NCBI RefSeq assembly: GCF_051622035.1
Contig: NC_135356.1
Span: 10,886,579 to 10,950,578 of the forward strand
DNA from: Arctopsyche grandis
Taxonomy: Eukaryota; Arthropoda; Insecta; Trichoptera; Hydropsychidae
Direction of reading: 5' to 3'
Length of the DNA: 64,000 bases
How positions within the stretch are numbered: the first letter of the stretch is position 1; each line of letters opens with the position of its first letter. The notes under the pieces are model-generated. The model worked only from the letters and a program-made list of their open reading frames with translations, did no database searches and was not told the origin of the DNA. The position numbers and the translations under genes were made by a program. Shown here one piece after another: positions 3,001-55,635 of this stretch.

Positions 3001-5540
3001 CTAACTTTCCATTATTTGATTTACCGATTTGATATACCGATTTGAGAAGGTGGAAAAAACGTTACACAAAGATATCAGTACGAGTCCTCTGAAGAGTCCT
3101 CTATAATTAAATGATGAAAATGTGTGATTGAATGTTTTTAAAAACCAAAATCCCAGTTATTTTTTTAAATATCTTTTCTCATATTACATATGAATTTCAA
3201 GATCGGTTTTTATGAAATATCAATAAAGTTGAAAAAAATAATAATCACCGTTTCAAACTCATAAAATGATCCTGGTAACTTTTTTAACTCGTTAATATCA
3301 CCGTGTCCTTCAATAATCAAGATCGCGCAACTAATTTTTTCAATTAAACATATGATTGGTTGAATTTTTTTGGAATATTCATTTTTGATGCGTAGTCTTC
3401 GTATATTTTTATCATAGGCCAATTCCTCCACTTTGGATTGACAACCAATTCTGATCACTTCGGACGTGATTTTCAAAATTCCAGTAAGAAATTGATCCAA
3501 GGCAAAATTAGAACATGCGATAACTAAAATTGGTCTTTCGGAATCCGTTATATTACCCAATATAGCCTGTACTATTTTAAGAGCTATATATGTCTTCCCA
3601 GTTCCTGGCGGACCTTGTATTGTTACACATTTTCTCGATAAAGCTGTTTTATAAGCTTCGTATTGAAATTCGTCTAACCCTATAGACTCGGCCTTTGGCC
3701 ATCCAACATTATTTTTCATATCGACAATATTTGATCCAATTTTGTAATCACTTTTCACATAAGTAGGTAGTTCGCTAGTAACCTATAAATAAAAATAAAA
3801 TGTAAGTGCTGATATATTTTCATTCTACATTTTATACGAGGCTTACTTGTAAAAAAATAGAAAAACAATTTCACAGAAAACTAACATAGAAATAAATAAA
3901 TACTATGCAGTTCTTTTGACAAAGAACTGCATCCACATCGATTTTTGCATTAATAGATACTTATAAAAATATAAAAAATCGATTACAGATTAAAAGCCCT
4001 TATCACTACATATATAAAACGCACACGTGTCCCTACCTGTGATTTCAATATCCAATTTTGCATCGGTAGTTCCTCGGTGTTTTTTAATGAATATAGAATT
4101 GAATAATAAAACGTGTAAAAAGCGTTGCTTTCGAACATCACATAGTTGTGTTTGAATAACTCTGTGGTAAATGATACATCTTCAAAATTCACCAAAAACT
4201 AAAAATAAAGAATAAATTAAAACACAAACATCACTTAATACTAATGAATAGATTGTAAATGCGTGAGCTAGTTTAGCACCAAAAAAAAATTTAACTCACT
4301 GTGCTGTCCCTTGAATATCTGTCTGAATCTATAATTGTGCCGAAAAACCATGACTCAAAATTGTCCCTTGAAAATAACAAAAGCGATCCAGATTTGAAAT
4401 TCGCGCTTGAATCCTCAAATTGCATCATGTTTCTAAATCTATCAATGTGAATTATTACTCCCACTCTGATGTTTGAAGTCACATAACGCTTCAATTTTGT
4501 GCCATGATAAAACCTGAAAAAATAAAAATAAATTAAAAAACACATTTTATTATTCATATACCATATAGGGATATTTTAATAACATCTGGCGTGAATTTTA
4601 GTATTTATTCGGTATAATATTATATCTTGTACCAGTCATCATGTGTTATAATGACTGGTACAAGATATAAAATACATAAATAAACAAGTAGGAAATTATC
4701 TTACCTTCCACCTTCATGTACTCCATAGGGTTTTTTCTTATAGCTTTGTATTGCAGTTCTAACTGTACTCAAGTAATCTTCTTTCAATAACCTAAACTGA
4801 ACGTCTAAATAGTGATCTACACTATAGTATTCGCCGTCAACAATGTTTTGACGCAAAAATACCGAATTTATTGATGATATCTCTTTCATATCTGGTTTTA
4901 TTGATAGTTCTCGAAAATTATTAGGTGGTTCTGTCAGATTAATACATTTTATTTTAGTTTCAGTCATCAAATTAGGTATCACACCAGTTATCTTAATTTT
5001 TCTGTCGGTCTTCAGAACATCAGCAAAAGATATTATCTTATCAGCCATCACATCAGTAACTTTCAATTTACCGGGGGATTTTAAAGCAGAAAGTCTTACC
5101 CCATTATTAGCAATGACACCAGTGATCTTAATTTTGTTGTCAATATTCGCATCAGAAATCGTTACTTTCTTATCAGCCATCACATCGGTAGCTTTCAATT
5201 TACCGGGGGATTTTAAAGCAGAAAGTCTTACCCCCTTATTAGCAATGACACCAGTGATCTTAATTTTGTTGTCAATATTCGCATCAGAAATCGTTACTTT
5301 CTTATCAGCCATCACATCGGTAGCTTTCAATTTACCGGGGGATTTTAAAGCAGAAAGTCTTACCCCCTTATTAGCAATGACACCAGTGATCTTAATTTTG
5401 TTGTCAATATTCGCATCAGAAATCGTTACTTTCTTATCAGCCATCACATCGGCAACTTTAATTTTGTTACGTGTCTTCACATTAAGGTCGACTAAACCAA
5501 GCATTTCGTTTATTTCTAACACACCCTTTTTCGAATCCAT
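1..5540 (-). CDS. ZNFX1: ZNFX1-like SF1 RNA helicase, 8 exons, 3' end cut by window
   Basis: Superfamily 1 (UPF1-like) helicase related to NFX1-type zinc finger protein 1, a factor in small-RNA inheritance and antiviral RNA sensing. Exons in transcription order: 5540-4705, 4513-4300, 4198-4037, 3782-3249, 1958-1818, 1740-1593, 432-349, 267-1. All junctions keep frame with GT/AG sites. About 795 codons are visible. Motifs in order: VHEGGRF and the NYVMFES region, typical of ZNFX1 upstream of the helicase core; Walker A GPPGTGKT (about 3600); NTDVVGITTT (motif Ic-like); EEAAQ (Walker B, split across the 1593/432 junction); GDQQQLRP; and QHRMRPEIS. The ATG at 5540 follows an acceptor at about 5564, so a 5' untranslated exon is likely upstream. 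Motifs V and VI and any NFX1 zinc fingers would lie before position 1. Known ZNFX1 proteins have a longer N-terminus; here it is replaced by a tandem repeat. Assignment is strong; exact splice sites are inferred. Confidence 0.9.
614..800 (+). mobile_element. Truncated copy of the ACTAGTGTTGTGC TIR element
   Basis: Starts with actagtgttgtgcccattg and follows the first ~180 bp of the 442-bp element found four times at 24.5-28.1 kb, including the ggtaatttataggcgc block. The other terminal repeat is absent. It lies in the intron between ZNFX1-like exons 1740-1593 and 432-349. Confidence 0.7.
1272..1434. mobile_element. Foldback hAT-type MITE
   Basis: Begins CAGTGGC and ends GCCACTG. The two arms pair over about 60 bp with a few mismatches. 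It is flanked by gtatgtat on both sides, fitting an 8-bp hAT target duplication, although the flank is a TATG microsatellite so the duplication could be fortuitous. Intronic to the ZNFX1-like gene. Confidence 0.7.
2179..2407. mobile_element. Inverted-repeat MITE (TTCATACCTAGTCGGCACGT family)
   Basis: The left arm reads cttaaagatctgttcatacc and the right arm is its near-perfect reverse complement. Arms are about 80 bp and include a shared tggtacatt block. Diverged relatives are at 2830-2935 and 40395-40570. Lies in the 1.3-kb ZNFX1-like intron. Confidence 0.75.
2830..2935. mobile_element. Diverged half copy of the 2179-2407 MITE family
   Basis: Shares the block ccatacaaaatgtaccaaag and the following cttttcgtac...ggtacgtgc arm with 40480-40570. 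Only one arm is recognisable. Confidence 0.5.
2974..3016. other. Perfect 20-bp hairpin with 3-nt loop
   Basis: Arm 2974-2993 (aataatggaaagttagaggg) is exactly complementary to 2997-3016 around loop gaa. It lies in the ZNFX1-like intron and has no recognised function. Confidence 0.85.
4621..4669. other. Perfect 19-bp hairpin with 11-nt loop
   Basis: Arms 4621-4639 (tatatcttgtaccagtcat) and 4651-4669 are exact reverse complements around an 11-nt loop. It sits in the short intron between the first two ZNFX1-like coding exons. Confidence 0.85.
5047..5448 (-). repeat. 132-bp (44-codon) tandem repeat inside ZNFX1-like exon 1
   Basis: Three near-identical 132-bp copies (the phrase agtgatctta recurs at 5121, 5253 and 5385) plus degenerate half copies at both ends. 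Each unit encodes a 44-residue, lysine-rich stretch including ITGVIANKGVRLSALKSPGK and DVMADKKVTISDANIDNKIK. The length is a multiple of three, so copy number can change without breaking frame. The near identity points to recent duplication. The function of the repeat is unknown. Confidence 0.9.
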
Positions 5541-5784
5541 CTTAACATAAATTGAAGAAATATCTGAAATGAAAATGAAAAAAAATCATAAAATATTGTA
5601 ATGTACGTACAATATATGTATGTATTTGGTATCGTGATTATTCCGTCGTTTATTATATTTATGTATTTATTATACAATAACGTTCATTTAAAATAGTGAA
5701 TATCAGAATTTGGAAACAGGCGTTCTCTATCAAGAAGAATTCGCAAGAAATAATAATATAATATAAAAAATTATAATTCTCGTA

Positions 5785-13094: not shown

Positions 13095-14350
13095 TATGTA
13101 AAAGACCCGATCGTTAAAAACCACATACCTAAAGGGACAATATTTTTATTGCCCAAAAATCGTAAAATCACAAGTATTCCAGTTTCCGAAACCGCGACGG
13201 TATATACAATGAGAAATAAATTCAAAAAGAGAGGAGTTTTTAAAATTTGATGAATTCCGGTGTAGATCTGAAGAGTAATTACTTTTAGTTAATCTTGATA
13301 ATACGATTGTGGAAAAGAAATACACAAACGGAACTCTCTATACTGAACATCTCGATAGTATGATTGATAATGCAATAAATGTTTCAAAAGGGAATGAAAA
13401 TTCAAATTTAAATTGAAAAATTATGGAAATATTTGTTGCAAAGGAAATGATGGAATATACAGTGAAAATGTGACTTCGAATTATAATATTTTTAACTATG
13501 TATTTAAATTTGAAGAAAATGAATTTTGACATTAAAAATTACATAATCTATGGGTATTAGTTGATTGGTAGTGGATGTATTTCCTATGCAAATTTACCCA
13601 AGCAGTATCCTTACATATTGGGCGTTAGTAGCTTCATCATATCACTCAGTAAATACGAAAAATGAACAGTTGAACAGATTTACAATATAAACAAAACGTT
13701 CAGCATGCCATCTTTCTTTGGAGACTACAATTTAAAATTTGATGAAAAGACCAATTTCATCGTTTTGAATACTAAGCAAGAGTGGTTAGATAAAATATAT
13801 TCCAGAGCAAATTCTCAGATTGCAAAAGATAGGTCAGTTCTGATATTCTTCGACACAGACATTGAAATAAACGCATTTGTAAAAGAGAATAGGTATAAAT
13901 TTGACCGGTTAAATGTGTTAACCGACAACACCGATGCTGCTGAAGTAGAGCGATTAATCGAAGAAGCTGCCATTTCTAAGACGATTACACTCTCAACGAG
14001 GGGTATGGGTCGTGGTGTTGATTATAGATCCAGTGTCCGTGTGGAAAAAATGGTGGTTTGCATGTCATACAAACATTCTTTTCGCTTGATATCAAAGAAG
14101 AGATACAAATCAAAGGTCGTACCGCGCGTAAAGATAATAAAGAGTTGAGTTGCTGTTAGAATATGGCTTAGTGGACGAAAATAGTTATTTATGGCATAAC
14201 TACTTTTTCGATTACCGAGAACTAAATAATGTTAGGATTAATAAAGTTGATGCTCAAGGAATAAAAATTTTAGAATCGATTAAGCAGGCCGAAGATAAAC
14301 ATGTGAAGACAATGAAATATTTTCAATCGTTTTTTAACACGAGTTCATAA
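13095..14350 (+). pseudogene. Decayed SecA-like motor ATPase gene (NBD2 region)
   Basis: Fragments in SecA order lie on the plus strand in shifting frames. These are EKKYTNGTLYTEHLDSMIDN (about 13315); SYANLPKQYPYILGV with a TGA shortly after (13585-13668); MPSFFGDYNLKFDEKTNFIV (13705); VLIFFDTDIE (about 13845); TLSTRGMGRGVDYR (about 13995), equivalent to the SecA TIATNMAGRGTDI motif; then, after a frameshift near 14035, GGLHVIQTFFSLDIKEEIQI with KGRTARKDNK (helicase motif VI-like); then after another shift LLEYGLVDENSY. At least one nonsense codon and two frameshifts make it non-functional. SecA is normally a bacterial/plastid preprotein translocase, but SecA-motor-domain proteins occur in some invertebrate genomes. 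Origin by old horizontal transfer is possible but not shown. The upstream DEAD half is not visible. Confidence 0.75.
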
Positions 14351-22703: not shown

Positions 22704-25700
22704 TTATTCAGATGTAGAACAATTCGGATGGAGCAAGTTGACTTGTTCGGATCTTTGTCTTTTATAACTGATGACGACACGTTGTTGAAAAGCTGTAAAT
22801 CTATTTTTGCACATAACAGTGTTCGTTTTAAGCGACCACAGAATGTAGGCATTTATCAACATTATTTCCAGTAAGTAGGCAAAATTCCCCAATCGGGGGT
22901 CTCCATTGGTTACCCAGTTAGTCCGAAGCATGTCAAACACTTGAGTGGACTTTTTCATGCCGTTGTACAAAATAATCGACAACGGGCGTTTCGCGAAATA
23001 TGCACGCCGCCCAGTTGTCGATTCCCTTCGGACTCGTTTGTGTTTATTGACATTTAGAAAAGATGTTAGGTAAATTCGAGGCATAATATCACTAATATGG
23101 AACATCGTCACACCTCCATCCAATCTTTGATAGTAACAATTTCTGGAGAAGGGATGAAAGGGACCTACCAATATCTTGATATCATCCCTCTCATAATCTA
23201 CCTCCCCACACATAAAAATATCACGGTTTTTCAAACAAGAAATCAAATTTAGATCCGTGACATTTTTGTCACTAAAAAAGACGGATTTCGGTGGAGTACC
23301 TTTAGCTAACTCCACGATTTTCTCTAAATTATTCGTTTTCCCGAATTCTTCAACATTGACTTTGAGGATAAATCCAGATTGGGCGTCTATCAATTGATAA
23401 ACCAACTCGGAGCTCGGGTCATCTTTAAGCAAGTGGCTAGAATTTGCGAAACAATAGCTCGACGGGGTGTAGAAACTCTTAGATTGCGCCAGTATTTTAT
23501 TGATTGTGAAAAAGATCATTCCGTATTTTGGAAAATCTGAGTTGTTCAAGAATTGATCGCTGGATATCATTGATTTTATAAACATTTTGTATCTATCTTG
23601 AGATTCCAAGTCGCCTTCGGAAACGGGAACGCGGGGTTGCACATGGAAATCAACTTTGCGTACTATGAACTGGCACATAAAATTTGCAATTTCGCTTGAA
23701 CTGAATTTAGTGCATGCGGTCTCACATGTAAACGTTTTATAAAAGTTGACTCTTCTGACCATTAACCGAACTATGTCTTCGTTACAAAAATATTGGAACA
23801 GCGACCATTCATCCTCGAAGCTTTCAAGTGAGAAAGAGTATACCTCCTTGAAAATATCACGGTTGCATTTACACACAGAACCTAAGGGGTTGTTGGCAGT
23901 TGGGCATGCCTCATTCGGTGCAACCTGCAAGTGCATGATTTAATAATTATGAGAACGATCCTTATAACACAATTTTTTCAAAATATGTAGTGTATAAAAG
24001 GTGGCTCAATAAATTAACAGTTACTTTCAACTATTACATATTTTAAATATAACATTAATTACCATAGGTGCAGCGATGTGTGCATACATTGGAATGGACG
24101 ACTCTAGATATGGATTATCCATCTGAAAAGAAAAACGTATTTAAGTACGTAAATCATCAATTACTTGAAGTGGGGGTATATGTAGTGGTATTTGTATTAA
24201 AAGGGGGCTAAATAAATAAACAATTACTATCAATAATTAAATATATATGGAAATATAATATTAATTACCCGAGGTGTAAAACGTTGTCCAAATGAGGAAG
24301 TGGATGGCATGTCATTCGGCATAATTGGCTGAAAAGAAAATCGTCTTGAATCGTTGATTTTTTAGTGGGATTATACGGAATTGGGTATAACGTTAATCGG
24401 GTATTGGAATTGGGTATAAGTGGTATTTGTGGTGTCACTTATGGTGGTATTTTTAGTTGTATTTGTGGTGGAATTTTTATTGGTATTTGTATTAAAAGAG
24501 GGCTCAATAAATAAACAACTACTATCAATAACTAGTGTTGTGCTCGTTGATTTCAACGGATGGTTTCGAAAAGGAATTGAAAAACGAATAAAAATAAAGT
24601 TATATGTAGTATAATGTAAGGTAATTTATAGGCGCAGGCGCACGTAATATTAATCGTACTAAAAGTGGCACATTATATACTTAGCAATCCAACCCGTTCG
24701 AAATGATGAATGAATGTGTGTGTATGCATGCACTGAGGACTTCGCCCCCCGCACCCCCGACGCCTCCAGCGGCCTGGGGGCTTTGCACCGAGGATCTCCG
24801 TCGCTCTGGGGGCTTCGCCCCCCGCACTCCGGAGTCTTCGCCTCTGATTCCCGATTTCTGCTTAAGTTCCGATTCGGATTAATTATTACTATACGTATTG
24901 TAACTTTATTTTAACTCATGTATCCATTCCTTTCCGAAACCACTTGTTGAAATCAACGGGCACAACACTAGTATAAATATAATATTAATTACCTGAGGTG
25001 CAAAACGTTGTCCATATGAGGAAGTGGACAGTATGTCGTTCGGCATAATCGGCTGAAAATAAAATCGTTTTGTATCATTGATTTTTTAGTGAAGGGGTCG
25101 GTAACTGATAACCAGAAATCATCTAAAGAAAAAAATTATGTTCAATTGGTAATTCTATTTTGGGACATTTCGCATATAAGTTTGTAAATCATCAATTATG
25201 TACTTGAAGTGGGGGTATATGTAGTGGTATTTGTATTAAAAGGAGGCTAAATAAATAAACAATTACTATCAATAATTAAATATACATATATGGAAATATA
25301 ATATTAATTACCCGAGGTGCAAAACGTTGTTCAAATGAGGAAGTGGACGGCAAGTAATTCGGCATAATTGGCTGAAAAGAAAATCGTCTTGAATCGTTGA
25401 TTTTTGAGTGGGATTATACGGAATTGGGTATAACGTTAATCGGGTATTGGAATTGGGTATAAGTGGTATTTGTGGTGTCACTTATGGTGGTATTTTTAGT
25501 TGTATTTGTGGTGGAATTTTTATTGGTATTTGTATTAAAAGAGGGCTCAATAAATAAACAACTACTATCAATAACTAGTGTTGTGCTCGTTGATTTCAAC
25601 GGATGGTTTCGAAAAGTAATTGAAAAACGAATAAAAATAAAGTTATATGTAGTATAATGTAAGGTAATTTAAAGGCGCAGGCGCACGTAATATTAATCGT

Positions 25701-28700
25701 ACTAAAAGTGGCACATTATATACTTAGCAATCCAACCCGTTCGAAATGATGAATGAATGTGTGTGTATGCATGCACTGAGGACTTCGCCCCCCGCACCCC
25801 CGACGCCTCCAGCGGCCTGGGGGCTTTGCACCGAGGATCTCCGTCGCTCTGGGGGCTTTGCCCCCCGCACTCCGGAGTCTTCGCCTCTGATTCCCGATTT
25901 CTGCTTAAGTTCCGATTCGGATTAATTATTACTATACGTATTGTAACTTTATTTTAACTCATGTATCCATTCCTTTCCGAAACCACTTGTTGAAATCAAC
26001 GGGCACAACACTAGTATAAATATAATATTAATTACCTGAGGTGCAAAACGTTGTCCATATGAGGAAGTGGACAGTATGTCGTTCGGCATAATCGGCTGAA
26101 AATAAAATCGTTTTGTATCATTGATTTTTTAGTGAAGGGGTCGGTAACTGATAACCAGAAATCATCTAAAGAAAAAAATTATGTTCAATTGGTAATTCTA
26201 TTTTGGGACATTTCGCATATAAGTTTGTAAATCATCAATTATGTACTTGAAGTGGGGGTATATGTAGTGGTATTTGTATTAAAAGGAGGCTAAATAAATA
26301 AACAATTACTATCAATAATTAAATATACATATATGGAAATATAATATTAATTACCCGAGGTGCAAAACGTTGTTCAAATGAGGAAGTGGACGGCAAGTAA
26401 TTCGGCATAATTGGCTGAAAAGAAAATCGTCTTGAATCGTTGATTTTTTAGTGGGATTATACGGAATTGGGTATAACGTTAATCGGGTATTGGAATTGGG
26501 TATAAGTGGTATTTGTGGTGTCACTTATGGTGGTATTTTTAGTTGTATTTGTGGTGGAATTTTTATTGGTATTTGTATTAAAAGAGGGCTCAATAAATAA
26601 ACAACTACTATCAATAACTAGTGTTGTGCTCGTTGATTTCAACGGATGGTTTCGAAAAGGAATTGAAAAACGAATAAAAATAAAGTTATATGTAGTATAA
26701 TGTAAGGTAATTTATAGGCGCAGGCGCACGTAATATTAATCGTACTAAAAGTGGCACATTATATACTTAGCAATCCAACCCGTTCGAAATGATGAATGAA
26801 TGTGTGTGTATGCATGCACTGAGGACTTCGCCCCCCGCACCCCCGACGCCTCCAGCGGCCTGGGGGCTTTGCACCGAGGATCTCCGTCGCTCTGGGGGCT
26901 TCGCCCCCCGCACTCCGGAGTCTTCGCCTCTGATTCCCGATTTCTGCTTAAGTTCCGATTCGGATTAATTATTACTATACGTATTGTAACTTTATTTTAA
27001 CTCATGTATCCATTCCTTTCCGAAACCACTTGTTGAAATCAACGGGCACAACACTAGTATAAATATAATATTAATTACCTGAGGTGCAAAACGTTGTCCA
27101 TATGAGGAAGTGGACGGTATGTCGTTCGGCATAATCGGCTGAAAATAAAATCGTTTTGTATCATTGATTTTTTAGTGAAGGGGTCGGTAACTGATAACCA
27201 GAAATCATCTAAAGAAAAAAATTATGTTCAATTGGTAATTCTATTTTGGGACATTTCGCATATAAGTTTGTAAATCATCAATTATGTACTTGAAGTGGGG
27301 GTATATGTAGTGGTATTTGTATTAAAAGGAGGCTAAATAAATAAACAATTACTATCAATAATTAAATATACATATATGGAAATATAATATTAATTACCCG
27401 AGGTGCAAAACGTTGTTCAAATGAGGAAGTGGACGGCAAGTAATTCGGCATAATTGGCTGAAAAGAAAATCGTCTTGAATCGTTGATTTTTTAGTGGGAT
27501 TATACGGAATTGGGTATAACGTTATCGGGTATTGGAATTGGGTATAAGTGGTATTTGTGGTGTCACTTATGGTGGTATTTTTAGTTGTATTTGTGGTGGA
27601 ATTTTTATTGGTATTTGTATTAAAAGAGGGCTCAATAAATAAACAACTACTATCAATAACTAGTGTTGTGCTCGTTGATTTCAACGGATGGTTTCGAAAA
27701 GGAATTGAAAAACGAATAAAAATAAAGTTATATGTAGTATAATGTAAGGTAATTTATAGGCGCAGGCGCACGTAATATTAATCGTACTAAAAGTGGCACA
27801 TTATATACTTAGCAATCCAACCCGTTCGAAATGATGAATGAATGTGTGTGTATGCATGCACTGAGGACTTCGACCCCCGCACCCCCGACGCCTCCAGCGG
27901 CCTGGGGGCTTTGCACCGAGGATCTCCGTCGCTCTGGGGGCTTCGCCCCCCGCACTCCGGAGTCTTCGCCTCTGATTCCCGATTTCTGCTTAAGTTCCGA
28001 TTCGGATTAATTATTACTATACGTATTGTAACTTTATTTTAACTCATGTATCCATTCCTTTCCGAAACCACTTGTTGAAATCAACGGGCACAACACTAGT
28101 ATAAATATAATATTAATTACCTGAGGTGCAAAACGTTGTCCATATGAGGAAGTGGACGGTATGTCGTTCGGCATAATCGGCTGAAAATAAAATCGTTTTG
28201 TATCATTGATTTTTTAGTGAAGGGGTCGGTAACTGATAACCAGAAATCATCTAAAGAAAAAAATTATGTTCAATTGGTAATTCTATTTTGGGACATTTCG
28301 CATATAAGTTTGTAAATCATCAATTATGTACTTGAAGTGGGGGTATATGTAGTGGCATTTGTATTAAAAGGGGGCTAAATAAATAAACAATTACTAGCAA
28401 TAATTAAATATATATGGAAATATAATATTAATTACCCGAGGTGCAAAACGTTGTCCAAACGAGGAAGTGGACGGTTTGTCATTCGGCATAATTGGCTGAA
28501 AAGAAAATCGTCTTGAATCGTTGATTTTTTTTGTGGGATTATACGGAATTGGCTATAACGTTAATCACAATCACAAAAATCGATTGCTTAAAATATCCTT
28601 TATTTCAAATCAAGTTTGGGAGCATCACCCACTACAGTACGGGTATCTCGGGAAATACCAAAATGTATTATCAAAACGGCTGATATTGGCGGATTGTGTT

Positions 28701-30454
28701 ATTTAAAGCCGATGGTCTGTATATTTCGTATAACCTGCTGCAAACAATTAGTAAAGAGGGACAAATACCTGAAGAGCCAGTCTGTTGGGGCCCATGTCCC
28801 TTTGCCCCAGGTCTGTTCTAACTTTAATTACTCCCCGCGGTGCATCTTCTCTTGATACGGAAGGGATATGTGGTCTAGATGTAGAGATCATCTAAAGAAA
28901 AAAAATCATATTGAATTGGTCATTTTTATATGGGACAGAAGGCATTTAAGTGCGTAAATCTTCAATTAACTTATGTACGAGTACATGGTGGTATTTATGG
29001 TGTTACTTATGGTAGTGTCACTTATGGTGGTATTTTTAGTTGTATTTGTGGTGGAATATTTATTGGTATTTGTATTAAAAGGGGGCTCAATAAATAAACA
29101 ACTACTATCAACGGATGCAATCCATAATCGGCTGAAAACAAAATCGTTTTGTATCATTGATTTTTTTAGTGAAGGGGTCGGTAACCGATAACCAGAAATC
29201 ATCTAAAGAAAAAAATTATTTTCAATTGGTAATTCGGTTGAAAATAAAATCGTATATAATTGTTGTTATTTTTTTTTAGTGAGATATTATGCATTCGAGT
29301 ATAACATTAATTACCTCTCGTGGTGCATCTTCCTCTGATAAGGAAGGGCTCGGTGGACCAGAATCAGACATCATCTAGAGAAAAGAATAATGTTGAATTG
29401 TTGATTTTTATACGAGACATTACTCATGTACATATGTGCCTAAATCAACAATTACTGGACGTGGTGGTATTTGGGATGATATTTTTAGTGGTATTTGTAT
29501 TAAAAAGGGGCTTAATAATGTATCCACAACTAATAACTAACCAGCAGCATAGCTCGGACGTTAAGCTTCTGCTTACCGTCAAGAAGGTGCCGGGTTCAAT
29601 CCCTGAATGAAAATGAATTTTTCAGAGTATGCTGTTGGTCAGACCTGGACTTGTGACTCCAGGTTGATCGTTTCCTATCAGAGTTTGCCAATTTTCTCTG
29701 ATTTCATTGTTGAAACGGTTCCCGGAAAAAAAAATTGGCTAAAAATCCTTCCTACCTACTATGTCACCATTATTTGAAATTTGATTGATGTACAATAAAA
29801 ATTTATGTACAATTCATAGATGTCTCGTTAATTTGCGAGTTTTTTCAGTGTCTCGCAATTCAACGACTTATAATAAAAATGCTGCATTTGTATTTGTAAT
29901 TGGCCAGGAAGGCGCATTGGGATTTACCTGTAAGGCCTTCCTGGTATATATGTAAAATAAAAAAATAAAAATAATAATTATTACATATTTAAATATAATA
30001 TAATTACCAGTTCTGCTGCGAGTTGTGCATACCAAGAATTGGACGGCAAAATTTGGGAGGAAATGGGCTGAAAAGAAAATCATATTGAATTTGCTGTTTT
30101 TTTTAGTGAGATAATACCCATTTGAGTATAATGTGTTATTACCTCCCGCGGTGCTTCTTCGTCTGATAAGGAAGAATTTAGTGATTCATAATCAGGGATC
30201 ATCTAAAAAAAAGAATAATATTGAATTGTTGATTTTTATACGAGACATTACTCATGTACATATGTGCCTAAATCAACAATTACTGGACGTGGTGGTATTT
30301 GGGATGATATTTTTAATAGTATTTGTATTAAAAAAGGGCTTAATAATGTATCGACAACTAATAATTATTACATATTTAAATATAATATAATTACCAATTC
30401 AGCTACGAGTTGTGCATACCAAGAATTGGACGGCAAAATTTGGGAGGAAATGGG
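22704..30454 (-). CDS. piggyBac-derived gene with an N-terminal array of 60-nt mini-exons
   Basis: The terminal exon 23924-22704 (406 codons plus stop, open throughout) is piggyBac/PGBD-like in residue order: EWSLFQYFCNEDIVRLMVRR, then VYQLIDAQSGFILKV, then FFSDKNVTDLNLISCLKNRD, then GGVTMFHISDIMPRIYL, then KRPLSIILYNGMKKS with a TxxVFDMLRTNW segment. Catalytic acidic positions appear lost: nothing like the LTxDE segment is found, and the GGVDxLD site reads KSTQVFD. The C-terminal cysteine-rich finger is absent. Upstream mini-exons, all exactly 60 nt and phase 0-0 with (t)cag/ttag acceptors and GTAATT donors: 30454-30395, 30202-30143, 30067-30008, 29374-29315, 28891-28832, 28495-28436, 28180-28121, 27457-27398, 27138-27079, 26414-26355, 26095-26036, 25371-25312, 25052-24993, 24328-24269 and 24122-24063. 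The model gives 300 + 406 residues. The start exon is not certain. The family call is from residue patterns only; the splicing is inferred. Confidence 0.75.
24063..24122 (-). other. Mini-exon type M (last before the piggyBac exon)
   Basis: Encodes MDNPYLESSIPMYAHIAAPM (20 codons), acceptor ttttcag, donor ATG|gtaatt. It joins in phase 0 to VAPNEACPTANN of the terminal exon. Unique in the array. Confidence 0.75.
24531..24972. mobile_element. 442-bp TIR element, copy 1
   Basis: Starts ACTAGTGTTGTGCTCGTTGA and ends TCAACGGGCACAACACTAGT. The TIRs extend about 47 bp (through tggtttcgaaaaggaat). The GC-rich centre contains gggggcttcgccccccgc, the same palindromic word as the satellite at 7193-9000. 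It sits in the intron between an F and a Y mini-exon. Confidence 0.85.
25085..25122 (-). pseudogene. Truncated type-C mini-exon in each unit
   Basis: After an intact ctttag acceptor, the minus strand reads MISGYQLPTPSL and runs straight into intron-like sequence with a stop (AAAAATCAATGA). The second half of the exon and its donor are gone. Equivalent starts are at 26165, 27208 and 28250; a related version starts at 29202/29193. If used as an exon it would end the frame, so it is probably skipped. Confidence 0.65.
25574..26015. mobile_element. 442-bp TIR element, copy 2
   Basis: Near-identical to copy 1, carried by the 1,043-bp unit rather than independently inserted. Confidence 0.85.
26617..27058. 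mobile_element. 442-bp TIR element, copy 3
   Basis: Near-identical to copy 1, carried by the tandem unit. Confidence 0.85.
27659..28100. mobile_element. 442-bp TIR element, copy 4
   Basis: Near-identical to copy 1, carried by the tandem unit. One change turns cttcgcc into cttcgac. Confidence 0.85.
29105..29202 (-). pseudogene. Degenerate C + P mini-exon remnants
   Basis: Half a C exon (MISGYRLPTPSL) is followed by ttttcag and the first few codons of a P exon (PIM), then unrelated sequence. This appears to be a recombination scar at the edge of the amplified array. Confidence 0.6.
29541..29955 (+). mobile_element. tRNA-derived SINE, family A
   Basis: The head ccagcagcatagctcggacg gives an A-box-like TAGCTCGG...GTTAAG, and gggttcaatccc a B-box. 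The body includes tcagagtttgccaattt and cattgttgaaacg. The tail ccaggaaggcgcattgggat ... ccttcctgg folds back. The same order is at 53183-53595. Inserted in an intron of the mini-exon gene. Confidence 0.8.
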
Positions 30455-30489: not shown

Positions 30490-31040
30490 TTTTAGTTAAA
30501 GGTTCGCTGAACGTTTTTTTTTTTGGACTCTAGCTTTGTAAATAGAGCTAAACAGCCCCGATTCCTGGAAAAAGCACGGTGTCTATCCGGTGTTTAGTCG
30601 GTTCGGTGATTACTAGTCAAATGTGAACCGGTCACAGAACAACCGGTCGCTCTAGATCGGTCACACGTGATCACCCGTCACACTAAAACTGGTCACACCC
30701 TAAAACTGGTCACCAGAAGACTGGTCACACCCGAAAATTGGTCACGAAAAAACTGGTCACACCCAAAAATTAAAAATTGGTCGAATTTTTCGGCGTGACC
30801 AGTTTTTTCATGACTAATTTTCGGGTGTGACCAATTTTAGTGTGACGGGTGATCACGTGTGACCGATCTAGAGCGACCGGTTGTCTTGTGACTGGTTCAC
30901 ATGTGACTAGTAGTCCGTTTACCGTCTAGTCATAAGTAGAGGTAGGATAGCCAAGGTGCCGCTCATTGTTCGGCAAACCTTTAACAATGCATTTAAAACA
31001 TTTGAGCAATACACGGCACCCTCTGGGTCCGGGCTTTAGT
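30490..31040. mobile_element. CCGGACCC-family MITE split by another insertion
   Basis: The left part (ggactctagctttgtaaata, cccgattcctggaaaaagca) and right part (ggcaaacctttaacaatgca, caccctctgggtccggg) match 38170-38510. They are separated by the foldback element at 30612-30912. Confidence 0.7.
30612..30912. mobile_element. Foldback element rich in TGGTCAC words
   Basis: Left arm gtgattactagtcaaatgtg...cggtcgctctagatcggtca pairs with right arm gtgaccgatctagagcgacc...cacatgtgactagtagtc. The centre carries repeated actggtcacaccc-type words. Nested inside the MITE at 30490-31040. Confidence 0.75.
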
Positions 31041-31073: not shown

Positions 31074-31997
31074 GTCCGTACGCACCAAACCAACGACGAC
31101 TTTGGGCCAACTTTTAAAACCAGTAGCGTACAAAATATCGAAATAAAAATTAAATAAAAAAATTGAAATTAAATATCAAAATTAAGCTAACGAGTGAGAT
31201 TGAGCTAAAATTAGACCATCGTTGATGTTTTGAATTACAATAATGTTTTGAATTACGACGATGCGCATTACAACCAGAGAAATATTATAATTACGAGCGA
31301 AAAAAACTTTGTTATTGTTTCTTATAAGTCGTCACGATACACCAATGTGTTTCGCCGTCGATGAAATATTTAACAAAAAAAATGTCGGTGATTTGTCAAA
31401 GGGTTTTTTTTTTCTTTCGTCGAAATAAAATTAATAATCACACATTATCCGATAAATTTTACCTCTGAGATGGATTTAATTATTTGATTTATTTCGACGA
31501 GAGAAACAATTGAAGACAAAAAAATTTCCTTTGATAAACCGACAACGTGTCTGGTTGAAACCATCACTCGGTCACCCATACTAACACATGATATATTCTC
31601 AGTAACTGCGCATTACGGGGAAGTAAAAATAATAATTCTTTGATTTTTTTTCGATCTTAGTGCGTATCTACGTAAGTCAAAACATCTTCGACAAACAAAA
31701 GTCGAGGATTACCTGTATGTGATTGTTGATGATCTAATTTTAGCTCAATCTCGAAAATTTATTTAAATTGGGCATGTTCTGTTTTAACTTTCAATATTTT
31801 ATTTTAATTTTAATATATTGATTATAATTTTATTTTGATATTTGAATTTAATTTTAATATAATAATAATATTTTTAATTTTGATATTTAATTTCAATTTT
31901 TAAATTTAATTTTTATTTCGATATTTTGTACGCTACTGGTTTTATCCTGCTGGTTAAATCGTTGGACCAAAATCGTCGTTGGTTTGGTCCGTACGCA
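31074..31997. mobile_element. Long-TIR foldback element just upstream of CCDC50-like exon 1
   Basis: Left arm gtccgtacgcaccaaaccaa...accagtagcgtacaaaatat is mirrored at 31880-31997 (atattttgtacgctactggt...ttggtttggtccgtacg). Arms of more than 200 bp also share the inner agattgagctaaaatta block. There is no ORF of note. The right edge is about 190 bp before the CCDC50-like ATG. Confidence 0.75.
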
Positions 31998-32812: not shown

Positions 32813-35800
32813 TAAAACTTGAAAAAAGTCAATATTTTTCATTGTTATATATTCAAGAGGTAGTGTCAAGGGTTGGCACTAAACACATAATAAAATAATC
32901 GAATCGGTTTCTACAAACGCGTGGCGATTAAGTGGTTAAAAGAAGACAAATAAATAATGGAATTAATAAGCAATAGATCTTGATGTTGAAATTGATTCAA
33001 AATATAAATACTAGCGTCAAATTTTAATTAACAAAAACAGGTTGAGAATTTCGCACACACAGAAATGGAAAAGTCTAGGCAAAGTAATTTAAGAAATCGC
33101 AATTTATCAAAAATAACGTTTTTTTTTTTTATTATTTTATACTTCATCTGTATAATATAATGGCTGAAGGAAATGTTATTTAAATAAGAATAAGAGAAGT
33201 GTTGTTCTGCTGGAATGTGGTCCTTCAAAAATGTAGGGAATTCGGGAAGAGGATATACGTTAGTTTCATCGATTTCGAAGAAGCATTCGATAAAGTGAAA
33301 CATAATTAAATAATCAATGCATTAAAACAAAGAGGGATAGATGGAAGGGATATTGCCCTTTTGAAGAACCTATATTTGAATCAATCTGTTCTCGTGAAGG
33401 TCTGAAGACATGGAAACCGAAAATATAGAAATTTGTCAAGGGATGTAACAGAGTTGTATGCTTTCGCTCATGCTCTTTGACATCGATATTAATAAAAAAA
33501 AAACTGATAATAAGCAAGGAAAAGACAACGCACTCATTCTGAGAGTGCACGGACAAATAATTAAGCAAGTCGAACTGCCCAAATCGAATACTTAGGCGCC
33601 ATGATTAATCCAGACATTGGCTCGGAAACAAAATAGAATGTATATATATTCATTACTTACATAGTGTAGTTTAAAATGGGGTTCAATACAATTTTCCGAA
33701 TTTTCAATACAATCTTAAAGAATGTCACTTAAACCATAAACGGAAACGTCAAACTGTATAGTGTTGTTTTTCACTCATTTTAGTGAGAGGTGTATACTGT
33801 GTGAGCATTCTGGATCATTCGTTTGTGATTCACCAATACTGAGTAGCGAAAATAAAATTATTTGGGAAAAGCGTTTTCGATTTTTATCAGTATTGTTCGT
33901 TGAAATGTTGCGTACCTTTTGTCACCTTACTTGAACTTTTTGTGACACTTATAGGCTATTCATGTAACGGCTTTGTATTTTTTTTATTGTGTGTATACAA
34001 TGCTCGGATACTCCCCTATAACCTTCTTCTTCTTCGTGCCTTGTCCGCATCCGGACATTGGAGACCACCTTGTCGATGATTTGCAGATATCCGCATCGGT
34101 CTTCAGCGGCTCGTAACAGTTGTTCGGCGCTCATATCGGTTCACATGCGCATTTTTCGAAGCCCATATAACTTCTTCCTGCCAATCCATTTTCTACCTTC
34201 TATTTTTCCCACAGTTATCAAACAGAGAAATTCGTATTTTGGACCCCGTATTATGTGTCCGCGTATTAATCCATCCTTCCCTGCTTGATGACCGAAATAA
34301 GTTTCCTGCCTCTCACTATCACGCCGAGGAGAGCTTCATTGGTGACTTTTTTGGTCCATGGGATTTTCAGCATACGCCTGTAGACCAACATCTCAAAAGC
34401 TTTGATGCGGCTGATCATGCTGGTCTTCAGAGTCATCCATATAGTAGCACTGCCCATGCATAGCCTTTCGCGAATCTCAAACGTATACGAAGATTGAGAT
34501 ACTTGTTTGTAAATGCCGATTAATGAATGTTTGATGAATGCTGTTCTAGCCATCTCGATGCGGATTCTCAAGTCCTCGTCTGATTCAATTTTTTCATTCA
34601 AAGTATTTAAATCTCTTGTCAAATTTTGTCTTACTATTAAGGAGATATATAAAATGCATATAATGTCTAGATTTTTCTCTCTTCATAGTTGGTCTCTCAA
34701 TACTGAGGATCGTGACATCCGTAAGGTCCATAATCTGGGGTATGGTTAACGAGTCTTTTCCAATCTTCTCTGGAAACAGTATCGACGACAGAACAGCCGA
34801 GAGCTGACCTGATTTGATCTGTTCACTGTATAGAAGATCTTCCTCTTCTTCTCTTCCTCTCTACGGCACCAACCACAACAAGCTTTTCCAGGCTGCTGTC
34901 TTCTCTCCTCGCCACATATCCAAAAAACTGGAGAATGCGTCGCTAACATATTTTTCTTTGCGACGAATATCTTCGAAATTGAAATATTGGTTCGCTTCCA
35001 ATGGTCCACGTTCCAATATTGGACCGTGGACCGCCAGTGGTGAAACCTTCGATAGTTTGATAAATAAAATGTATGTATAAAACTGAAAATTTGTAGCTGA
35101 CGCTCAGCAAAATGCTTATAGGCATCACACCGCCGGTGGACCTCAAAAATAGTTTGTTGCGATATCATAAATGTTCAGCTGTATCGTCGCGAAGATTAAA
35201 TATGAGAATGTCTTTGTTGAATGCTTGCGGGCATTTTACCAGTGTAGAATAGCATCATTGCAGTTCTATTCCGACACAGTTTGATGATTTTGTTACAGTT
35301 TGGCTGTACACATTTGAACCACTAGGATAAAAGCTTACGAGCATGTTACAAGTGAGTCACCGACCTTACACAGCCAATGTGTATCAGGATAGAAGCTTTT
35401 GAAAGAAATATGTTGAAAATATATAAGAGGGATAGCATGGAATGACACAGTCCTCCGATTATTGGGTGAATATCTAAGCAACTATAAAACTAAGAAAATG
35501 CTTTAGACACATTGCTTAGGCAAAAAGACCCAAGATTCAGTGTTTCAATAAAAGTTTAAAACCAGATTCAAACGAGCTACCGATCAGTTGAAATCGTTTA
35601 AATGACAATGCAATTCCGTTAAAAGACAAATTATTACATATTAATTATACAAGATTATTTCGATTGAGAAAGACATCGTGAAGATACATTGCGCAAGAAG
35701 GAAGACCAAGATACAGTGGCTCAATAAAAGTTTAAAACCGGATGTGACGAGCTACTAACCAGTTGAAATCAGCTAAATGATACCGCACTTTTCAAAGAAG

Positions 35801-38800
35801 ACATATTGAAAGAGGCTCACCTCATCGTCAATTGTTTCCACATCGATTATTTCGGATGTGTCAGACATCGTTGATCACCGAAGTAACAGGCTTCAAACTT
35901 GTGGGGAATGCTTCTTCAGAAGTCTTCGTATGAGGAGAGCCACCGCAGGAGTGAAGTTACAGCAAATTAATATGCTTCTTTATTAAATTAATATGCATTA
36001 TCAGTTATTGTAATATGATCTAGTAGACGCAGCGCTTCCCAGTAGAACAGTTTTTCTTATCAGCAAATTTGTGCCTTTGGAAATACAAAGTTGGCGATAT
36101 TTGAACATTCGCAAATGGGGTTTAATTCCACATACCGTGCTGAGTCAACGATAGTGGGCAAGAAAATGATAAACGACACCACCTCAAATGGTCAGACCGA
36201 AGTGTGGGATAAAATTAAAGCCTAGCGTATATACCCTATACCCTTGTGTGGTGTCATCCAGACGTTTTATATGAGATCCCTATATTCAGGGATTAATTAA
36301 GAAGCTCCCTGAGCGCAAAAACAAGTTTCGACAAATATTCATGTGTATTTTCTTGAGAAATACGTACATATGTATGTATAAAACCGGAAATTTGCAGCGG
36401 AGGTTCTGCAAAATGCTCAGAGACATCACACCACTGCCAGTGGATCGCGAAAATGGTTTGGTGTGACATCATAAATTATCGGTTGTAACGTCACGAGAAA
36501 TAAATATTAAAAGGTGTTTGCCAAATGCTCGCGAGCTTTCTACAAGTCTACGAAAAGCATCAATGATGTGGTTCGAGTCTGACAAAATTAAATGATTTTG
36601 TCACATTAGAGCCACTAGGAGGATAGCTCATGAATATTTTACTAGTAAATCGCCGGCCTTATATAGTCAATGTGTAACAGGATAGAAGCTTTTGAAAGAA
36701 AAATATTGAAAATGTATAAGAGGGATGTTATGGAATGATACAATCCTCCGATGATGATTGGGTGAAGATAAATGCTTTAGACACGTTGCGCAGGGCGGAA
36801 GACCAAGATTCAGTGGCTCAATAGAAGTTTAAAACCGGATCTACTGACGAGTTGAAATCAGTTAAATGATACTGCAGTTTCGTTAGAAGACATATTGAAA
36901 GAGGCTCACCTCATCGTCAATTGTTTCCACATCGATTATTTCGGATGTGTCGGACATCGTTGATCGCCAAAGTAACAGTCTTCAAACTCGTGGGGTGCTT
37001 CTTCGGAGGTATTCAGAGGTCTTCAGTGGAGGAGAGTCACCACAAGTGTGAAGCTACAGCAAATTAATATGCTTATTTATTGAATTAATATGCACAGATA
37101 TTGTAATGCGATCCAGTCGATTCAGCGCTTCCAGTAGGATATTGTTACTGTTATCAGCAAATTCGTACAATAGAAAATACAAAGTTGGCGATATTTGAAC
37201 ATTCACAAATGGAGTTTAATTTCACGTGTAATGTTGGGTCAGCGCTAGTGAGCGATATTAAAATATAAGACCACCATATCTGGAATTAAACCCCATTTGC
37301 AAATGTTCAAATATCGCCAACTTTTTATTTCCAAAGGCACAAATTTGCTGATAAGAAAAACTGTTCTTCTGGGAAGCACTGCGTCGACTAGATCGCATTA
37401 CAATATCTGATAATGCATATTAATTACCTCTAAAGAATATATACCAGCTGCCCATTCAGTTAACGATCTTATTAATAATATTTCATCTGATGTAGTATTT
37501 ACTATTATATTTTTCTACTGAAATGTTTAATAAATGTCATATAAAAAATTATTATCCCCCCCCCCCTGCATATTGGTAGATTATGATTCATGTTTTATAG
37601 AAAAAAATAGATCGCCGTGAGTACTCTTTCCTAATAGTATACTAAACCAGTATACTATTAGGGTAAGACCAGTAATACTAAAATCTTTCAATCTTGATTG
37701 TATCAACACAGATTGAGGATTTGGTATAACATTCCACCGGAGGTCTTGAATCATTTCCTTTGTCAAAACAGCAATGTAAGTTTTTGTATGTTTTCACCAG
37801 GACAATACTCGCCAGCACATTGATGTTTTGGTAATAGATACTGTTCGCGACTTCCATTGGAATTTACTGCATAATCCTCATTCAGATTTAGCATAGAATT
37901 ATCACCCCTTCGGCCCACTATGCAAGAATAGATCTGATTTCAGCCAAAACAATAATACTCTTCGGGGATTAAAAAGCATCTTAAGTGCTAGAATGAGTGT
38001 ATTTAGCTGATGAGTATTTATAAAACCAATAACTTGCAACCAAGGCTCTGCAAAATGCTTGGAAAGGTCCCGCTGGTGTTTTGTGAATATGGTTTGGTGT
38101 GAGGTCACGAGAAACATTCATGAGAGCAGTTTGGCGAAATGCTCGCGGCATGCTATAATTAGTGAGTGGACCCTTAGCGTGCCGTTCATTGTAAATTGCT
38201 CGCCGTGCTTTGTTAAAGGTTTGCCGAACCTTTTTTCTTGCATTCTAGCTTTGTGAATAGAGCCAAACCGCCCCGATTCCTGGAAAAAGCACGCTCCCTA
38301 TCCGCCCTTTAGTTATAAGTAAAGGCCGGATAACCAAGGTGCCGTCTTGAAAAAAACGGACCCAGAGGGTGCTGTGTATTGTTCATTGCATTGTTAAAGG
38401 TTCGCCGAACGTTTTTTTTGTTGGACTCTAGCTTTGTAAATAGAACTAAACCGTTCCGATTCCTAGAAAATGCACCGTGACTATCCGGTGTATAGTTATA
38501 AGCAGTCAGCTTTTTTTTTAATAAAAGGCGCATTCGTCCGCCTAAGACTGCTTATAACATGTTTTATTTTATCAAAATATTTTCTCCGTCGTTATCTCAA
38601 TGCTGAGGATTGTCGCTGATGGGGATAATAATATTGTTGCTTAGCCAAATCCTTTTTTAATTTTTGCGTGCAAGGTAGAACTGACAGGCTAGTATGTGGC
38701 TGCCTTCAGTCTCCGCGCACTTGTCGTAGCAGCCAGAAGTATTTTACGCTCCGAAACTAGTTTTAACTTATTTTTGAAAACGAGTTTCGATACAGAGAAA

Positions 38801-52727: not shown

Positions 52728-55635
<2,908 letters not shown>

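Follow-up and report, generated by a model that had tools for sequence, protein, structure and literature searches.

We read a stretch of 64,000 nucleotides of Arctopsyche grandis DNA (contig NC_135356.1; hereafter the window) as containing a single-locus, immobile piggyBac-derived host gene with an N-terminal tandem array of symmetric exons (rough probability 0.58). According to this reading, transcription would begin 5' of the first exon, which exists in duplicate (36957 and/or 35868), and a 16-codon acidic start exon would be spliced to 15 phase-0 exons of 60 nt and these to a 406-codon exon carrying the piggyBac core, with phase 0 at every junction. The protein would most likely be non-catalytic, its old core binding DNA or partner proteins behind a presumably disordered tail. 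If the gene is expressed, a captured transposase would have gained a new N-terminal region via repeated duplication of frame-neutral exons, and the length of the protein may vary through whole-exon copy number. The elements of the locus are given below; all mini-exons were obtained from the unit scan.

36910..36957, minus strand: copy a of the candidate first coding exon; 16 codons opening with ATG, MSDTSEIIDVETIDDE; donor GAG/GTGAGC, phase 0
35821..35868, minus strand: candidate first coding exon, copy b; peptide identical to copy a
30395..30454, minus strand: mini-exon P1, PISSQILPSNSWYAQLVAEL; matched by the P2 genome probe
30143..30202, minus strand: mini-exon M1, MIPDYESLNSSLSDEEAPRE; matched by the M2 genome probe
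30008..30067, minus strand: mini-exon P2; used as genome probe
29315..29374, minus strand: mini-exon M2; used as genome probe
28832..28891, minus strand: mini-exon M3
28436..28495, minus strand: mini-exon C1; matched by the C5 genome probe
28121..28180, minus strand: mini-exon D1
27398..27457, minus strand: mini-exon C2
27079..27138, minus strand: mini-exon D2
26355..26414, minus strand: mini-exon C3
26036..26095, minus strand: mini-exon D3
25312..25371, minus strand: mini-exon C4
24993..25052, minus strand: mini-exon D4
24269..24328, minus strand: mini-exon C5; used as genome probe
24063..24122, minus strand: last mini-exon Mt, MDNPYLESSIPMYAHIAAPM
22704..23924, minus strand: terminal exon with piggyBac core (PF13843); 406 codons 23924-22707, stop 22706-22704; catalytic positions N, D, Q or T
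24329..28495, minus strand: four head-to-tail units of 1038, 1043, 1043 and 1043 nt
24531..24972, unstranded: MITE-like insert of 442 nt inside the ~1,043-nt unit; copies at 25574-26015, 26617-27058 and 27659-28100
28216..28250 (3' border approximate), minus strand: truncated M-type exon; acceptor present, no donor
Starts at 29202, 27208, 26165 and 25122, minus strand: further truncated M-type copies; acceptor present, no donor
22054 and 22034: AATAAA signals, in keeping with the host-gene reading

The array of 60-nt units and its candidate first exon

The sequence-only reading had described an array of 20-codon, phase-0, stop-free units bordered by AG and GTAAT, and this description was borne out. 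Between 24063 and 30454 on the minus strand, all 15 units of the form AG, 60 nt, GTAAT were stop-free, in phase 0 and 20 codons long, compared with a mean of 0.07 and a maximum of 1 in 300 Markov-resampled sequences. Over the whole 64 kb, the minus strand held 19 such pairs, 15 of them within this span, in a scan that counts 60-nt units only, so that units of altered length drop out. The four minus-strand pairs outside the span and both plus-strand pairs have stops inside. When AG-to-GTAAT distances of 20-199 nt were counted between 22.7 and 31.0 kb and a pyrimidine tract was demanded, 60 nt yielded 15 pairs and no other length more than 4. The coordinates of the units and the predicted junctions at 24063/23924 and 24269/24122 were also as previously given. 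A non-coding satellite, which had been named beforehand as a competing outcome, was rejected as main explanation because the array fits exact length, phase and splice borders.

Two P, three M, five C and four D units and one last unit (Mt) make up the array, and 11 of the sequences are distinct. C and D are sister classes (C1 and D1 are identical at 54/60 nt) and, among seven representative units, P, C/D and Mt were related in register (codon-shuffle p <=0.0012). For the M units of this set, comparison with the others gave nominal p <0.05 in 4/12 cases, with a lowest value of 0.007. On these values, common descent of the M class and the remaining units is not established. The hallmarks of a symmetric-exon array (equal phase at both ends, sequence kinship, borders at predicted splice sites) were present, M-class kinship aside. 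Judged from the sequence, the front end of the gene appears to consist of 15 interchangeable 20-amino-acid exons.

The locus might instead be a decaying relic, a former piggyBac-derived gene that is no longer expressed, with frames surviving by chance and recent duplication and with the 1,043-nt units as neutral satellite expansion. We consider this unlikely but a serious competitor, and the frames of the mini-exons bear on it. None of the 11 distinct units contains a stop and the two other forward frames carry stops in 13/22 cases, which argues against a relic; in P2, D1 and D3, however, none of the three forward frames is interrupted, and these units are uninformative on frame. Over eight contrasts, the intact units showed zero stops over 109 substitutions; the product of P(open) was ~0.012 for contrasts that are not fully independent, and the stop test taken alone is weak. 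For indels, 9.3 events were expected and 0 seen (P ~1e-4; within classes 4.5 expected, P ~0.01), with a rate set by hand from aligned flanks (9 events per 105 substitutions, some events by eye) and in a test biased towards frame, as units were picked by their 60-nt length and five truncated M copies omitted. This bias weighs somewhat in favor of the relic and against the preferred reading. After allowing for shared ancestry, the frame signal of the mini-exons is modest.

A within-class check of the kind proposed by the sequence-only reading (dN/dS on the C, D and P classes) showed weak selection on the mini-exon peptides. pN/pS was below 1 in 11/14 within-class pairs (C and D pooled), with several values near 1, and in four hand-picked, nearly independent pairs ~19.5 of 31 changes were nonsynonymous, where neutrality would give a share of 0.755 (p 0.06-0.11). 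Amino-acid change this close to neutral is also what the relic predicts.

Within the host-gene reading, the mini-exons might be used singly or few at once (mutually exclusive or alternative exons), which would leave a short variable tail and not one of 300 residues. This variant, the probability of which overlaps with that of the preferred reading, strikes us as a minority possibility. The M units and Mt have an ATG at codon 1 and might act as alternative start exons; the P, C and D units carry no ATG at this codon, and nothing observed forces exclusivity.

The likely first exon of the piggyBac-derived gene is a 16-codon ATG exon with a phase-0 donor, located 5.4 kb upstream of the array, beyond other repeats and outside the span originally described, and we infer its link to the array gene. 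It is present twice, both copies predict an identical peptide, and the surrounding DNA is ~82% identical. Between the copies, 1/48 coding positions differs (a synonymous change) versus 75/418 in the flanks (Fisher p 0.003), and this conservation of the coding part speaks against the relic. By eye, the encoded peptide is acidic without a hydrophobic leader. A similarity between the first-exon read-through and the terminal exon (13 residues, E 4.1) was rejected, as it was absent in sensitive blastn.

Recent duplication and probable mosaic structure

The copy number of the mini-exons had been suggested to change freely, and the four ~1,043-nt units, which were duplicated recently and hold two mini-exons each, support a recent change of this number. 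A single C exon and a single D exon are found in each unit, together with a truncated M copy and the 442-nt insert. Units 2-4 are 1-5 substitutions apart over 1043 nt (99.5-99.9% identical), and such near identity might point to an artefact of assembly in the recent units, with a lower true mini-exon count. We regard this as very improbable, since private differences separate the units (four sites between units 3 and 4, ten between units 1 and 2), and the older units P, M, C1, C5 and Mt would stay regardless. A diverged match of the 442-nt insert is located near 604-738 of the window.

The five truncated M-type copies have kept the acceptor and lack the donor. If this acceptor were spliced together with the D exon, a stop would follow after 15 codons in 4/4 copies read, which counts against the host-gene reading. 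That the array contains inserts and truncated units is in line with the relic. Comparison of M1 with M2 revealed differences at 15/60 exon sites and at only 8/192 sites of the preceding intron; for C1 and C2, 6/60 exon sites differ versus 4/918 outside the exons. We rejected these figures as proof of exon-specific acceleration (positive selection), because the intron downstream of M is as diverged as the exon (17/74 sites and 3 indels) and three of the four C1/C2 intron differences fall no more than 85 columns from C1. Breakpoints of duplications in a mosaic array would account for this pattern, and somewhat faster evolution of the exons may come in addition.

For the host gene that we favor, unequal recombination would alter the length of the tail, as seen in the four ~1,043-nt units, and exon skipping might do the same. 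As every unit is 60 nt long and in phase 0, the tail would change in 20-residue steps with the frame intact. It is conceivable, though on balance doubtful, that exon number differs among individuals and exon choice among cells, so that a dead core would carry a tail adjustable in such steps. Since the units are recent, their copy number can be tested in a handful of individuals.

The terminal exon, its descent and its mobility

The last mini-exon joins the 406-codon exon in frame, and the piggyBac ancestry that the sequence-only reading had assigned to this exon was recovered with PF13843 (DDE_Tnp_1_7 core; 30.1 bits, Pfam cut-off 22.4). Against a profile built from 20 piggyBac ORFs resident in this genome, the exon scored 28.6 bits, and the second catalytic Asp and the YN and NAYIL-type motifs align with the piggyBac core. 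The pairwise score with T. ni piggyBac (38 vs. a shuffle mean of 35.6) was no better than shuffles and 1/6 pieces of the exon exceeded the Pfam cut-off, which leaves profiles as the basis of the piggyBac link. Descent of the terminal exon from the piggyBac superfamily is supported at this level. Within the N-terminal 316 residues, Pfam searches found no domain, and PDB sequence searches returned nothing relevant.

An in-frame ATG (MHLQVAPNEA) lies directly upstream of the terminal-exon acceptor, the pyrimidine tract of which is poorer than in the other acceptors. The terminal exon could, therefore, stand alone as an intronless piggyBac relic reading from its own ATG, with the upstream array as an unrelated non-coding repeat. 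We consider this improbable, because the AG-to-GTAAT distance of 60 nt stands out from all others, all 15 units are open in the frame that matches the phase of the terminal exon and a phase-0 start exon is found upstream. Against decay of the locus as a whole stand the chance of an open 406-codon frame from base composition alone (~2e-12) and the remoteness of the terminal-exon protein, for which the best phmmer E against the 20 resident ORFs was 0.0013 and which thus did not arise as a recently dead copy of any of these 20.

We take the piggyBac catalytic Asp triad to be D268/D346/D447 (T. ni numbering). The first column has Asp in 17/20 resident ORFs and N here, in a gappy region outside the profile alignment; the second has Asp in 17/20 and D here; the third has Asp in 14/20 (by eye) and Q here, or T in the profile alignment. 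The full triad of an active transposase is absent and the core is probably catalytically dead; the change of two of three catalytic residues also agrees with a relic. PGBD5 is described as lacking 3 of 4 catalytic aspartates (PMC3902484) and DNA transposition has been reported for it (PMC4625184), so that loss of these residues is no proof of inactivity.

Among 2852 TTAA pairs between 20000 and 33000, a search for nearby, not strongly diverged ends, 3 had at least 12/16 terminal-repeat matches (2.4 expected). A C-terminal cysteine-rich domain was not seen; as read from the sequence, the 45 C-terminal residues contain 2 Cys. In the 475.7-Mb genome, the terminal exon had one match, with one candidate at first look, in a search that distant paralogues may escape. 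All matches of the P2 (5/5), C5 (10/10), M2 (2/2) and first-exon (2/2) probes lie at the locus and none elsewhere, although the M2 probe missed the known M3 unit and diverged copies elsewhere could escape. With TTAA/terminal repeats at chance level between 20000 and 33000 and one locus found by these probes, we rejected a mobile element. The several copies typical of a piggyBac transposon were not found, and by these searches the locus is single-copy, immobile and intact in frame, as for a domesticated transposase gene.

A matching protein was found in none of 1001 candidates and none of 8000 scored from a collection of predicted proteins numbering about 5.8 billion. At least one entry of this collection (P0007) apparently derives from the present assembly, and the negative result counts in favor of the relic. 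Relatives were sought in viral_contigs and genome_contigs, where 3 and 28 pattern matches, respectively, gave 0 confirmed cases.

Comparison with known systems

The sequence-only reading knew of no described gene with this architecture. This needs amendment in view of lancelet PGBD5 repeats and the small-exon rows of schistosomes and aphids. The matches listed from titles and abstracts of the open-licence literature included no insect piggyBac-derived gene with a split, repeated N-terminus. With piggyBac transposons (T. ni piggyBac, PDB 6x67; the 20 resident ORFs), the Arctopsyche gene shares core homology at profile level. It differs in its changed first and third catalytic positions, an N-terminus split into predicted exons, the lack of a cysteine-rich end, TTAA/terminal repeats that were not found and its one locus.

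Schistosome micro-exon genes (MEG) are described as rows of very small symmetric exons with frame-neutral splicing variation (PMC4350168, PMC10526429), and in this respect they resemble the present array. However, MEG products are described as secreted, whereas the present gene ends in a transposase core and its predicted N-terminus, as judged by eye, lacks any stretch resembling a leader. Aphid bicycle genes likewise have numerous small internal exons that share one phase, but almost all are reported as phase 2 (PMC9168663) and 15/15 Arctopsyche units are in phase 0; fixed-length tandem units and a transposase part are not mentioned in the available portion of that source.

PGBD5 is a domesticated piggyBac gene of chordates. 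For lancelet PGBD5, imperfect tandem repeats of 60 bp and 108 bp are reported at splice sites, with copies differing between assemblies (2 or 7, 3 or 6); a predicted exon of extra 108-bp copies was excluded by the authors (PMC3902484). PGBD5 and the Arctopsyche gene are both piggyBac-derived and have introns (predicted here), and most catalytic aspartates are lost in the former and positions altered in the latter. In PGBD5, introns cut the transposase domain and repeats overlap exon borders (PMC3902484), whereas the Arctopsyche core is one exon and its repeats are whole phase-0 exons upstream of the core. In this comparison, which implies no orthology, lancelet PGBD5 may serve as a partial precedent.

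Mini-exon array and candidate start exon

The sequence-only reading had described a row of frame-neutral 60-nt mini-exons leading into a piggyBac-like exon. This observation is real; it survives scrutiny and gains a candidate start exon, a single locus and a changed active site. From 30454 to 22704 on the minus strand, we found 15 units, all exactly 60 nt long. Each has 20 open codons in phase 0, a pyrimidine-rich acceptor before it and GTAAT after it, and the array is followed by a 406-codon open frame on the same strand. When the region was Markov-resampled 300 times, open 60-nt units numbered 0.07 on average and 1 at most, and the remaining AG-60-GTAAT pairs of the 64-kb window (four minus, two plus) all carry a stop in that frame. 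The units fall into the classes P, M, C and D with a last unit, Mt, and the introns measure 75 to 664 nt.

Features of the predicted gene in transcript order
36957-36910, minus strand, candidate first exon, 16 codons from ATG, MSDTSEIIDVETIDDE
35868-35821, minus strand, second copy of the candidate first exon, also 16 codons from ATG, MSDTSEIIDVETIDDE
30454-22704, minus strand, P1, M1, P2, M2, M3, C1, D1, C2, D2, C3, D3, C4, D4, C5, Mt, terminal exon

The candidate first exon ends in a phase 0 donor (GAG|GTGAGC), and the P1 acceptor lies 5.4 kb downstream with other repeats in between. Its two copies differ at 1 of 48 coding sites (synonymous) compared with 75 of 418 flanking sites (Fisher p 0.003), and acidic N-terminal stretches were also seen by eye in many of the 20 resident piggyBac open reading frames (ORFs) of this genome. 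We infer that the 16-codon exon is the first coding exon, one or both copies being used. The first-exon region as a whole (35069-37425) is a tandem duplication with additional partial and inverted copies. Directly upstream of the array there is a palindromic repeat (30595-30928; arms of 145 nt, 85% complementary), and an inverted-repeat element occupies 31115-31944 (71-nt arms, 97% complementary, 688 nt apart).

Terminal exon and its genomic setting

The proposed piggyBac-like character of the terminal exon was borne out by Pfam DDE_Tnp_1_7 (30.1 bits, cut-off 22.4); when six pieces were scanned singly, one scored above the cut-off, two below it and three had no match. A profile built from the 20 resident ORFs gave 28.6 bits. 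It brings the second catalytic Asp, YN and the NAYIL motif into line, and its alignment of the core start has a score of zero. Direct alignment with T. ni piggyBac scored no better than shuffles, and the best single relative among the 20 resident ORFs reached only E 0.0013 with the joined model (mini-exons plus terminal exon). The catalytic columns, which hold Asp in 17/20, 17/20 and 14/20 resident ORFs, read N, D and Q in the multiple alignment (T as third in the profile alignment), and the segment following the first is largely missing. As read from the sequence, the last 45 residues contain two cysteines, so piggyBac's cysteine-rich end seems to be lacking. No pair of TTAA/terminal-repeat ends stood out around the locus, and the terminal exon had one match in the whole genome. 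Taken together, the altered columns, absence of recognisable ends, single copy and distant relatives suggest that this exon is probably an old, immobile, catalytically dead piggyBac derivative that keeps a 406-codon open frame; base composition alone would yield such a frame with a probability of about 2e-12.

In the assembly (475.7 Mb, 189 contigs), all matches of the P2 (5/5), C5 (10/10), M2 (2/2) and first-exon (2/2) probes were confined to the present locus; the M2 probe detects M1 and misses M3, so that copies as diverged as M3 may escape. Of 605 piggyBac candidates in the genome, 116 were scored and all 116 proved to be piggyBac matches, many with equal scores and open frames, which suggests recent piggyBac activity. 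Three other long open piggyBac-like frames with degenerate catalytic motifs (L023, L024 and L025 on contigs C3, C6 and C5) are possible further domesticated copies.

In the protein database, neither the terminal exon (0/1001 candidates) nor the joined 706-residue model (0/8000 scored) found a match. A resident piggyBac element returned 1158 matches, and thus the search works for this family. An annotated protein for the array gene is probably absent, which argues against strong expression, but gene models may also break down where exons are small and repeats are masked.

Downstream, the neighbouring minus-strand gene, which looks ZNFX1-like, contains an AAA_11 helicase fragment (4701-5585, E 4e-13). 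In one of its exons (3210-3782) a 44-residue repeat occurs three times, and a DUF7884 match there lies just above the cut-off. On the plus strand, a 160-residue open frame (13666-14148) has a weak SecA P-loop match below the cut-off (E 0.012).

Duplication and constraint among the units

The C and D classes are sisters, and P, C/D and Mt units show in-register likeness above that allowed by codon shuffles. Kinship of the M class to the remaining units was not established (nominal p < 0.05 in 4 of 12 comparisons). Each of four head-to-tail units (1038, 1043, 1043 and 1043 nt) combines a C and a D exon with a truncated M copy and a 442-nt insert whose ends are inverted. Between units 2-4 there are 1 to 5 substitutions, and thus the amplification is recent; it came after the 442-nt insertion. 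The truncated M copies keep an acceptor; if it were used along with the D exon, the frame would close after 15 codons in 4/4 copies read. The P2-M2 intron carries an insert of >400 nt (29560-29990) that P1-M1 lacks. It is perhaps a SINE, one end looking tRNA-like by eye, and related sequence lies at 53262-53597 (about 74%) and 52960-53083.

Diverged units were said to keep length and frame, and among intact units this holds: over 109 substitutions (eight contrasts, some non-independent) no stop was gained and no length changed, although units had been picked by their 60-nt length and five truncated M copies lie outside the count. At the neighbouring-intron rate, 9.3 indels were expected over the eight contrasts and 4.5 within classes alone; none was observed. 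In the dN/dS check suggested earlier, pN/pS was below 1 in 11 of 14 within-class pairs but often near 1, and the pooled count over four nearly independent pairs was not significant. For M1/M2 and C1/C2, exon divergence exceeds that of the introns as a whole. This excess extends into adjoining intron sequence and therefore marks duplication breakpoints; as proof of exon-specific selection it was ruled out.

Predicted product and known systems

Transcription would start from the duplicated first exon, and phase 0 splicing through the array would yield a protein with at most 722 residues. In its predicted N-terminal part of 316 residues, Ser and Pro are abundant, and disorder-promoting residues are modestly more frequent than in the terminal exon (65% vs 55%). 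The role of such a protein would be non-catalytic, and copy number and exon choice would alter tail length in 20-residue steps. Precedent on DNA binding by domesticated piggyBac proteins points both ways: according to one study, PGBD3 retains binding to a piggyBac terminal repeat despite one D-to-N change, and PGBD5 has no apparent DNA binding (PMC3902484).

The claim that this architecture is undescribed has to be qualified. Among the open-licence literature matches listed, no other piggyBac- or transposase-derived gene had such an array. Schistosome micro-exon genes (PMC4350168) and aphid bicycle genes (PMC9168663) resemble it in their rows of small one-phase exons; the differences lie in phase, secretion or origin. 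Against the claim stands lancelet PGBD5, a domesticated piggyBac for which the study cited above reports tandem repeats of 60 and 108 bp at splice sites, copy numbers that vary among assemblies, and a predicted exon of extra 108-bp copies that its authors excluded from the protein (PMC3902484). Among the literature found, it is the nearest published description of the present gene's architecture.
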